In this document: piece by piece, positions 11,156 to 13,560 of the stretch
Layout: every line of letters starts with the position of its first letter
How positions within the stretch are numbered: position 1 is the first letter of the stretch
NCBI RefSeq assembly: GCF_005938225.1
Contig: NZ_VCPC01000003.1
Span: 1 to 64,000, forward strand
Length of the DNA: 64,000 nt
DNA from: Arenibacterium halophilum
GTDB taxonomy: Bacteria > Pseudomonadota > Alphaproteobacteria > Rhodobacterales > Rhodobacteraceae
Direction of reading: 5' to 3'
Translations under genes and position numbers: made by a program
Notes under the pieces: model-generated
Databases searched by the model: none
The model's input: the letters and a program-made list of their open reading frames with translations, nothing else
What the model was told of the DNA's origin: nothing

Positions 11156-11531
11156 TGATCGAAAGTTGATTTGGAGGCAGGCGCGGGTCATCCCGATGTA
11201 GGATCACCTGCCGGGGGCGGTTCCGCCCGGGTTTGCCCTAACGGCGCATCTCCCGGCTGTTTCCGACACCTCGCTCCAATACCTTTCTCGACACTGGACC
11301 ACCTCCTTTCAGTTGTTTCGGTTACCTTGATGCTGGCAGACGTGTGGCCGATCTGGCAAGCACCGATTTCGCCCAAAGCGATTTTCTGCATTTTGCTGCC
11401 TGATTTTTCATCACAGCCGCCACGCGCCCGATCGGGCCGACTGTTTGCGCCAACGACATTGAAATGTTGCCTTGCCCGCGCAAAAGTGGCGGGGCGCACC
11501 GTATTTCGCGCGATTTTTCAGGGGGAATTTT
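11156..11531. other. Intergenic region between arfB and the RTX gene
   Basis: No conventional gene is seen. The left part holds the putative minus-strand RNA with its micro-ORF described separately. The right part (about 11400-11531) must contain the promoter of the RTX gene but shows no strong sigma-70 match. Its start is preceded by GGGGGA. A 103-residue minus-strand ORF spans much of the region, but its composition is not protein-like. Confidence 0.6.
11238..11294 (-). CDS. 18-residue micro-ORF with consensus ribosome-binding site
   Basis: A GTG codon 7 bases after AGGAGG opens an ORF encoding MSRKVLERGVGNSREMRR, followed by TAG. The product is strongly basic with no hydrophobic segment, so it is unlikely to be a membrane peptide. 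The Shine-Dalgarno AAAGGAGGTG is fully complementary to the 16S tail, which is rare by chance in GC-rich DNA. It could be a leader peptide whose translation controls the downstream terminator. The function is unknown. Confidence 0.4.
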   Translation of the reverse strand: MSRKVLERGVGNSREMRR

Positions 11532-12794
11532 ATGAGCGACGTAACTGCAACGGTCTATGACCACACGTTTTTCTACAGCAACTACAACATGCCCTGGCAG
11601 GGGGTGATTGCCCAAACCCTGCGTGGGGCGTTGCGCAAGTCGGTCTCGGGTGACGACATAATCTACAAAGACGCCTGGTCAGGTCTGACGGTGACGGTGA
11701 CGAAAACCGGACAATTCGTGACTGGTCTGGTCATCGAAGGCCCAATTCCCGATGGGGCGGGGGGCATGACGGACAAGGTGCTGGTCGACGCCAGCTTCGA
11801 CACCGGCGTGCTGAAGGCGTGGAAGCTGAAAGACGTCTTCAACAGCTATCATGCCACCAGCGGGGACGATGCCCGGATCGAACGGATGTTCGACAACTTC
11901 ACCTACGACACTACAACCGTCAACACCCGCGAGATCGACGCGCATATTTTCAACCCGATCATCACCGGGGGACGCGGAGACGACACCTTTGTTTTTGGCC
12001 CGGGGCCGCACAGCGTTTATGCCAGCGCCGGCAACGACAGTTACACCGGCGGCGGACAGCACAACACGATCAGCTATGAAAAGTTCAGAGACGGGCTGAC
12101 CCTGTCGCGGTCGGGCACCGAACTGACCGTCGAGAAAAGCGAAGATGAAAGTGACACGCTGACCAATTTCCGGTGGATGATCGGGTCGAAGGGCAACGAC
12201 GATTTCAAGGTCGGGCTCGGGAACCAGACCGGAACGCTTTATGGCTGGGGCGGTCGCGACAAGCTGGGTGGCGGGTCCGATGCCGACTATCTGGACGGGG
12301 GCAACGGATCGGACGTGATCTGGGGCCGTGGCGGTAACGACCTGCTGATCGGCGGCAACGGCAACGACCGCATCATCGGCGGCGCCGGGGCCGACATCAT
12401 CGTGGGAAATAACGGCTACGGTTATGGAAGTGGTGTGACCACCGCCACCGGAGGCAAGGGGCGTGATCTGTTTGTGCTCGAAGCCGGATCGCCCTATGCC
12501 CAGACCTCGGCCATGATGGTGATCACCGATTTCCGCGATGGCGTTGATTTTCTTGGCCTGATCGGAAACGGGTTCCAGATCATGAACTACGGCAGCTATG
12601 GAACGAATTTCGACGATCTGACGATTGCCGACAGCGTCGATGGCGCCGTGATTTCAGTTGGCGCGCAGCAGATCGCGCTGGTCGAAGGCATCGATGCCTC
12701 AGACCTTACACGCCGCGATTTCGTCGAGATGCTGGATGTCGAGGCGCTGCGATCGCAACTCTACTACGACAACGACGCCTACTTTTACTACTAA
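11532..12794 (+). CDS. RTX-type calcium-binding secreted protein
   Basis: The 420-residue protein carries glycine-aspartate nonapeptide repeats in a block near residues 236-293 (GGSDADYLDGGNGSDVIWG and GGNGNDRIIGGAGADIIVG are examples) plus an earlier isolated repeat (GGRGDDTFVFG). These form a calcium-binding parallel beta-roll typical of type I-secreted proteins. There is no N-terminal signal peptide, as expected for a C-terminal secretion signal. The last 16 residues are unusually rich in Tyr and Asp (YYDNDAYFYY). The first 130 residues match no domain I recognise. No type I secretion genes lie in the window. The start at 11532 follows GGGGGA. Confidence 0.85.
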   Translation: MSDVTATVYDHTFFYSNYNMPWQGVIAQTLRGALRKSVSGDDIIYKDAWSGLTVTVTKTGQFVTGLVIEGPIPDGAGGMTDKVLVDASFDTGVLKAWKLKDVFNSYHATSGDDARIERMFDNFTYDTTTVNTREIDAHIFNPIITGGRGDDTFVFGPGPHSVYASAGNDSYTGGGQHNTISYEKFRDGLTLSRSGTELTVEKSEDESDTLTNFRWMIGSKGNDDFKVGLGNQTGTLYGWGGRDKLGGGSDADYLDGGNGSDVIWGRGGNDLLIGGNGNDRIIGGAGADIIVGNNGYGYGSGVTTATGGKGRDLFVLEAGSPYAQTSAMMVITDFRDGVDFLGLIGNGFQIMNYGSYGTNFDDLTIADSVDGAVISVGAQQIALVEGIDASDLTRRDFVEMLDVEALRSQLYYDNDAYFYY

Positions 12795-12831: not shown

Positions 12832-13458
12832 TCAGGCCAGCGCGCGGCCTTGCAACTGCTGCACGATCATGCGGAACGGAATCAGCGCGATCAGCGCCAG
12901 TGACAGTTTCACCATCCAGTCCGCCACGGCGAGCGAGACCCAAAGCGGCACCATCGGCCCGACGCCCAGCAGCGGCAGAACCTCGGTCGCCCAGCTGACA
13001 TCGTTGGCCGGTTCGATCCAGATCAGACTGGCCGAAAAGGCGATGGTGAAGAACAGCGCGGTGTCCAGAGTCGAGCCGACCAGGGTCGAGGCCAGCGGCG
13101 CGCGCCACCATTTGCCCGACCGCAGCGCGGAAAAGATCGCAACGTCGCTCAGCTGTGCGACAAGGAAGGCGATGCCCGAGCCGATGGCGATGCGCAGCGT
13201 GACCAGCGGGCCGAATTCGCCCATGATCTGCGTGCCGATCAGCGAACAGATCACGCCGGTCACGAACCCGGCCAGCACCACACGGCGCGCGGCGGGCGCG
13301 CCATAGACGCGGTTCATCACATCGGTGATCAGGAACGCGATAGGATAGGTAAATGCCCCCCAGGTCAGCCATTGGCCGAACAGGAACTGCACGAGGATAT
13401 TCGAGGCCACCACGACGGCAGCCATGGCAAGAATGCCAGGAAGGTAGGAACGTGTCAT
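12832..13458 (-). CDS. yhhQ: Queuosine-precursor transporter (YhhQ/VUT family)
   Basis: This 208-residue inner-membrane protein of the COG1738 family imports queuosine precursors (preQ0/preQ1 or queuine). It shows about six hydrophobic helices, the FLITDVMNRVYG motif after helix two, and an SDVAIFSALR stretch in the middle helix, all typical of YhhQ. The assignment is strongly supported by the preQ1-I riboswitch immediately upstream. It stands alone on the minus strand, converging with the RTX gene. Confidence 0.92.
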   Translation of the reverse strand: MTRSYLPGILAMAAVVVASNILVQFLFGQWLTWGAFTYPIAFLITDVMNRVYGAPAARRVVLAGFVTGVICSLIGTQIMGEFGPLVTLRIAIGSGIAFLVAQLSDVAIFSALRSGKWWRAPLASTLVGSTLDTALFFTIAFSASLIWIEPANDVSWATEVLPLLGVGPMVPLWVSLAVADWMVKLSLALIALIPFRMIVQQLQGRALA

Positions 13459-13465
13459 TTTCAGA

Positions 13466-13495
13466 GCCCGTTTTTACAAGGTAGCGGCGACTTGG
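13466..13495 (-). promoter_or_regulatory. PreQ1-I riboswitch aptamer
   Basis: In the minus-strand leader, starting 8 bases before the start codon, the RNA reads stem CCAAG, loop UCGCCGCUAC, stem CUUG, then an A-rich tail UAAAAACGGGC. This is the class I preQ1 aptamer plan: a short hairpin whose loop carries UCGC-N-G-N-N-AC, followed by an A-run and a tail that pairs back with the loop (CCG with CGG). It aligns well from memory with the Thermoanaerobacter tengcongensis aptamer. The tail holds the only purine-rich ribosome-site candidate, so control is probably translational. Confidence 0.8.
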
Positions 13496-13560
13496 CCCAG
13501 CCGGCGCGGCTGGGCAGATCGCGTGCTAGTCCTTTCGGGCGCATTTTGCAACCCCGGGCG

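Follow-up and report, generated by a model that had tools for sequence, protein, structure and literature searches.

The minus strand of the window (the whole 64,000-nt stretch of Arenibacterium halophilum DNA analyzed here) carries a 30-nt sequence directly before a transporter gene, which raises the question of whether this leader acts as a regulatory RNA and which metabolite it might sense. It spans positions 13495-13466 and reads CCAAGTCGCCGCTACCTTGTAAAAACGGGC, identical to the reading behind the original prediction of a preQ1-I riboswitch preceding a YhhQ transporter. Riboswitches of this kind sense preQ1, from which the tRNA modification queuosine is made. According to our analysis, that assignment is supported by the architecture of the element, its conservation, covariation in stem P1, the match of the ligand pocket and the linkage to yhhQ.

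The yhhQ locus and the distribution of its leader element

The downstream gene (12832-13458, minus strand) encodes a COG1738/QPTR queuosine-precursor transporter of 208 aa, with matches to Pfam Vut_1 (E 8e-29, 101 bits, above the cut-off) and to TIGR00697, the model for queuosine precursor transporters (92 bits, cutoff 51). Its ATG start codon (13458-13456, minus strand) follows 7 bases after the 30-nt element.

On the other side of yhhQ, between it and an arfB-like gene, the opposite strand carries an open reading frame with RTX calcium-binding repeats (11472-12794, plus strand). At locus L225, yhhQ and the arfB-like gene are closer together than in the window. The sequence GAAAGGAGGTGATCCA is common to about 75 loci 3' of yhhQ and has a near-match at window positions 11296-11309 (minus strand). 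At L225:2172-2245 (plus strand) it is followed by an ATG, an 18-codon mini-ORF and a hairpin, all before the arfB-like gene. GAAAGGAGGTGATCCA represents a near-complete Shine-Dalgarno sequence (the complement of the 16S 3' end) ahead of a tiny ORF, and its region displays a sub-threshold match to Rfam CC2171. This mini-ORF region could represent a small protein or a regulatory RNA.

Among the closest orthologues, 109/110 carry the pattern CAAGTCKCCGCWACCTTG-(1-4 nt)-AAAA-CGG with small variations directly 5' of the start codon, and 99 of these 109 leaders place CGG 7-11 nt before the ATG. Conservation per base across leaders amounts to about 1.4 bits in the stem-loop and 2.0 bits over AAAACGG (the latter partly by construction), compared with 0.06 bits further upstream. 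From 83 distinct elements we derived a covariance model (R1). Searched with R1, the 4.6-Mb genome of the strain itself gave a convincing match only at this place (E 7e-11; next best 0.08), well outside chance expectation. Within the Rhodobacteraceae it matched 239/296 genomes, each of a different genus. These matches comprise 239 of the 277 genomes with yhhQ and 0 of the 19 genomes without it (Fisher p about 1.5e-15, phylogeny ignored). The loop and the A-tract, by whose retention the original prediction could be judged, are thus kept upstream of orthologous yhhQ genes. About 20 of the 38 yhhQ genomes (38/277) that R1 does not match show no recognizable element, which counts against the riboswitch reading; roughly one in three of the 38 shows a diverged version.

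Outside the family, R1 returned nothing convincing among 385 genomes over the class, and the 22 matches among 398 genomes over the phylum were all in the same family. Nor was the element seen in front of yhhQ in 56 other alphaproteobacterial genomes, so that the range of the suggested compact alphaproteobacterial variant has to be narrowed to the Rhodobacteraceae.

Two groups of further matches were set aside. Second R1 matches in eight genomes (G012, G056, G064, G127, G243, G702, G678 and G683) lie away from yhhQ and miss the full core, and we took them as chance. Weak R1 matches elsewhere in the class (L122-L131) have no adjoining yhhQ and an incomplete core. In G163, a second good-looking copy of the aptamer, CAAGTCACCGCTACCTTGGATAAAAAACGG, is located at the very end of a contig (L264:1501-1533). 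The yhhQ leader of Roseovarius albus (L042) has its core replaced by GGGGGAATGTCCCCCCGACCCCC, where the element seems to have been rebuilt or lost.

Predicted aptamer architecture and ligand

The element begins with P1, formed by CAAG (13491-13494, minus strand) and CUUG (13477-13480, minus strand), with 13494-13491 pairing with 13480-13477. This stem had originally been drawn as CCAAG/CUUG. Its first C (13495) falls outside because it ends a 9-bp hairpin upstream, which leaves a P1 of 4 bp (CAAG/CTTG). The 10-nt loop UCGCCGCUAC (13481-13490, minus strand) corresponds to U6 C7 G8 C9 C10 G11 C12 U13 A14 C15 in the numbering of Thermoanaerobacter tengcongensis (Tte). In length and key residues it agrees with the Tte type II loop (PMC11625349, PMC10622847), and it is conserved in orthologues. 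The L3 linker and A-tract follow as UAAAAA (13471-13476, minus strand), with a linker that varies in length and sequence and a conserved A-tract. The 3' strand of P2, CGG plus a position y (13467-13470, minus strand), holds a Shine-Dalgarno-like GG(G), whose last G is 8 nt from the ATG. The minimal tail pairing CCG/CGG proposed at the outset was recovered as P2, in which CCG at 13487-13485 faces CGG at 13470-13468.

In most elements P1 reads CAAG/CUUG, with CAUG/CAUG, GAAG/CUUC and GAGG/CCUC as compensatory variants and, in addition, CGAG/CUUG with a G-U pair. We counted pairs on a 48-row alignment (A2) because the MAFFT alignment (A1) misplaces 9-nt loops and the variable tail. For A2, the variable linker was cut out, the A-tract was written as AAAA, and rows were chosen for CCG, CGG and at least three of the four P1 pairs, so that only changes within A2 are informative. 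The P1 covariation score of A2 lies above 500/500 shuffles and above all slid registers. At the end of P2, position y changes together with position 8 of the loop, U8 occurring with A in 17/19 rows and C8 with G in 6/6. Where position 8 is G (23/48 rows) this fourth P2 pair is mostly unformed, which counts against the riboswitch reading. The three core P2 pairs (CCG/CGG) are invariant and therefore lend no covariation support. Together with the conserved A-tract, the covariation of P1 and of the P2 end pair describes an H-type pseudoknot.

Across the family, the loop reads U6 C7 G/U/C8 C9 C10 G11 C12 N13 A14 C15, with G5-C16 closing it and A29 C30 G31 G32 y as the tail. In preQ1-I riboswitches, an L1 uridine and an L3 adenine read the minor-groove edge, G5-C16 forms the floor and C7-G11-C30 the ceiling of the pocket, A14 is the gatekeeper, and C9 pairs with a Shine-Dalgarno guanine (PMC11625349, PMC10622847). 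A residue-by-residue comparison with these published roles showed that the element has all the positions at which the Tte type II aptamer contacts its ligand, in a loop that is also 10 nt long. The likeness to the T. tengcongensis loop proposed at the outset thus holds position by position. U6 and A29 are presumably the L1 and L3 bases that read the ligand, and C15 (13481) is the predicted specificity base. The G5-C16 pair is found in 47/48 rows and G11-C30 in 48/48 (selected for), and C7 is present in most elements, 58/68 beginning with TC. Type II aptamers carry AC (not UC) before the P1 3' strand, with the C as specificity base (PMC11625349). The same position shows AC in 62/68 distinct elements and CC in 6/68, with the C being constant.

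The queuosine pathway was surveyed by a tblastn-type search with a joined query of E. coli QueC, D, E, F, Tgt and QueA. In the genome of the strain itself, this query found Tgt and QueA and no match to QueC/D/E/F. It does find QueC/D/E/F stretches in six relatives (G075, G089, G149, G176, G263 and G278). The absence of QueE and QueF is less certain than that of QueC, because both are detected weakly even in these six. Since QueA is present and genes for preQ1 synthesis were not detected, the host probably depends on imported preQ1. One of the six relatives, G075, has pathway and element together, and its only R1 match is at yhhQ. Three other members of the family (G017, G130 and G168) show matches to Tgt, QueA and a QueF-like sequence, none to QueC/D/E, and no yhhQ; they may import preQ0 by another transporter.

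The same RNA fold might have a physiological ligand other than preQ1, such as preQ0, queuine or guanine. The Tte type II aptamer also binds preQ0, with a Kd of 35 nM (PMC10622847), the substrates of the YhhQ family differ, with some members carrying queuine (PMC11130926), and a minority of elements have CC in place of AC at positions 14-15. We consider such a ligand unlikely, as C15 and the other pocket residues are those of preQ1 binders and the QueA encoded in the genome requires preQ1-tRNA. Moreover, preQ0 would be a dead end in this genome, where the tblastn-type search found neither QueF nor QueC/D/E.

Predicted promoter, P0 hairpin and proposed mode of control

Two features of the leader go beyond the original account, namely a hairpin (P0) and a predicted promoter. 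P0 (13495-13515, minus strand) is a 9-bp hairpin, GCCCAGCCG-CGC-CGGCTGGGC, which sits at the putative 5' terminus of the mRNA and abuts P1. In 87% of 131 distinct leaders, compared with 25% of shuffles, P1 is directly preceded by a perfect stem of 5 bp or more, and a control segment further upstream was no better than shuffles. The junction between P0 and P1 is gapless in 87/114. The predicted promoter consists of a -35 element, TTGCAA (13546-13551, minus strand), and a -10 element, TAGCAC (13523-13528, minus strand), with a GC-rich discriminator after the latter. It was delineated by the pattern TTG-N3-N17-TA in orthologous leaders, which occurs at a spacing of exactly 17 nt in 88% of the 131 distinct leaders, whereas other spacings mostly account for 0-6% (18 nt: 10%). 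Any such TTG/TA match was found in 131/131 leaders versus 5% of shuffles. A scan of the leader for a strict consensus promoter found none. Throughout the family, the yhhQ promoter (13517-13551, minus strand) shows absence of the final T of the -10 element and a strongly GC-rich discriminator, a form that may add growth-rate or stringent control to that exerted by the putative riboswitch.

The predicted transcription start lies near 13516, one base ahead of P0. The mRNA would therefore run from P0 through the aptamer to the AUG, with no room for a terminator. A scan of the leader for terminators found none, and a terminator-based expression platform was rejected. Since there is no terminator and the Shine-Dalgarno-like sequence lies within P2, control should be translational. 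In minimum-energy nested folding of the leader, P0 forms and P1 does not, P1 being weak alone, which counts against the riboswitch reading. The folding result is consistent with P0 helping P1 by stacking, a role that P0 may have.

These coordinates also bear on a reading in which the CAAG-N10-CTTG dyad is the DNA operator of a transcription factor and the A-tract and CGG are merely a ribosome-binding site. The dyad is a DNA inverted repeat between promoter and gene, but it is located downstream of the predicted start site. Its half-sites change jointly yet stay paired (CATG/CATG, GAAG/CTTC, GAGG/CCTC), a pattern incompatible with recognition by a specific protein. The centre of the loop is conserved as strongly as the arms, and position 8 shows covariation with a base outside the dyad, some 20 nt away. 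We regard an operator as very improbable on these grounds. Still less probable is a conserved translation-enhancing or mRNA-stability leader that combines a 5' hairpin with a fixed ribosome-binding site and senses no ligand. Such a leader would fit the predicted 5'-terminal position of P0, since hairpins placed there often protect mRNA, and a tail that serves as ribosome-binding site. It leaves unexplained why the residues are exactly those of the preQ1-I pocket, why pseudoknot pairing would cover the ribosome-binding site and why the link to a queuosine-precursor transporter is exclusive.

We posit that the leader is a Rhodobacteraceae-specific preQ1-I riboswitch, a type II/III hybrid that would act as a translational OFF switch and repress yhhQ when preQ1 is plentiful, and we assign this reading a probability of roughly 0.88. 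The architecture, the conservation, the covariation of P1 and in part of P2, the genomic linkage and the lack of detected de novo genes are supported by sequence data; the ligand and the sign of regulation we infer. Transcription would begin at or near P0, with the 4-bp P1 and its 10-nt loop coming directly after. The ligand preQ1 would rest on G5-C16 under the C7-G11-C30 ceiling, where C15, U6 and the final adenine of the A-tract would read it. Once bound, it would lock the loop CCG to the tail CGG in P2. P2 would then hide the only Shine-Dalgarno-like GG, 8 nt before the AUG, and less YhhQ would be made. When preQ1 is absent, the tail would be free, YhhQ would be made, and preQ1 would be imported for use by Tgt and QueA. 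An OFF switch on the importer that senses preQ1 would be a natural form of feedback.

Relation to known preQ1 riboswitches

The Rfam preQ1-I model RF00522, put forward as a check along with the original prediction, gave no match at its gathering threshold (39 bits) and none at E up to 10 in 401 nt. An Rfam search with 46 nt returned solely a spurious CRISPR match (9.8 bits), the RF00522 score being below 10 bits, and matches to preQ1-II and preQ1-III (RF01054, RF02680) were not found here. Of 100 family genomes, 0 exceeded the RF00522 cut-off; weak matches in relatives (e.g., G029, 25.5 bits, L270) were discarded, as none was seen at yhhQ. The yhhQ leader of E. coli K-12, TTGGGTTCCCTCACCCCAATGGTTAATCAAAAAGG, served as a control and was also missed by RF00522. 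Binding of preQ1 and a crystal structure have been published for this E. coli leader (PMC10622847). Because the model is blind to a validated type III riboswitch, its negative result is uninformative for preQ1-I RNAs associated with yhhQ, and we rejected it as arbiter. RF00522 needs type III and Rhodobacteraceae seeds.

As the only Rfam preQ1-I model cannot see the element, a regulator found in about four fifths of the genera sampled from a major marine bacterial family seems to have escaped annotation. The preQ1-I subtypes were reportedly defined in a survey by McCown et al. in 2014. The open-access literature on preQ1 in Rhodobacter, Rhodobacterales, Roseobacter or Alphaproteobacteria yielded no recognizable description of the element, although Rhodobacterales members may have been listed earlier, and the examined passages of PMC3766115 do not name preQ1 in Rhodobacterales. 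Type II riboswitches have been described in a number of phyla, Pseudomonadota contributing fewer sequences (PMC11625349). The yhhQ gene class is regulated by type III preQ1-I riboswitches in gammaproteobacteria, and reports of such control come almost only from this group (PMC10622847). Our analysis gives yhhQ of Rhodobacteraceae a predicted ligand (preQ1) and a control logic, and would connect the control of yhhQ in gamma- and alphaproteobacteria by way of different preQ1-I subtypes. We lean towards regarding the element as a fourth preQ1-I subtype, confined to Rhodobacteraceae, in which a type II pocket is combined with a P2 that buries the Shine-Dalgarno sequence in type III style and a 4-bp P1 is propped by the stacked 5' P0. 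It would control preQ1 import in bacteria several of which, among those examined, lack preQ1 synthesis.

PreQ1-II and preQ1-III riboswitches share with the element the predicted ligand and the control of queuosine-precursor transporters, but they are much larger and have other folds. With type II (T. tengcongensis, B. subtilis; PMC11625349) it has in common the H-type pseudoknot, U6 C7 C9 G11 A14 C15, the G5-C16 floor and AC before the P1 3' strand, and with Tte also the 10-nt loop and an A-tract followed by C30. The Tte tail reads C30 A31 A32 G33 with a partly non-canonical P2, whereas CGG forms a continuous canonical P2 here (C9-G32, C10-G31, G11-C30) and Tte's A31 A32 pair is missing. The element is therefore a variant and not a plain type II aptamer. 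It further differs from type II in its P1 of 4 bp, in the added abutting 5' hairpin P0, and in that RF00522 does not score it.

With the gammaproteobacterial type III riboswitch upstream of yhhQ (E. coli; PMC10622847), the element shares the transporter family, AC before the P1 3' strand and invisibility to RF00522. Both Shine-Dalgarno guanines are paired in a continuous P2 in either case; here CC pairs with the GG of CGG, which in most leaders lies 7-11 nt ahead of the ATG. In type III, the 5' P1 strand is followed by UU and the loop is pyrimidine-rich (UUCCCUCAC in E. coli), whereas our element has UC (58/68), a 10-nt loop containing G11 and often G8, and a ceiling pair of G-C rather than U-A. 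As a naturally occurring hybrid, it lends itself to the question of which pocket elements determine preQ1/preQ0 selectivity and Shine-Dalgarno burial. Given its type II pocket and its type III-like continuous P2, we describe the element as a type II/III hybrid.
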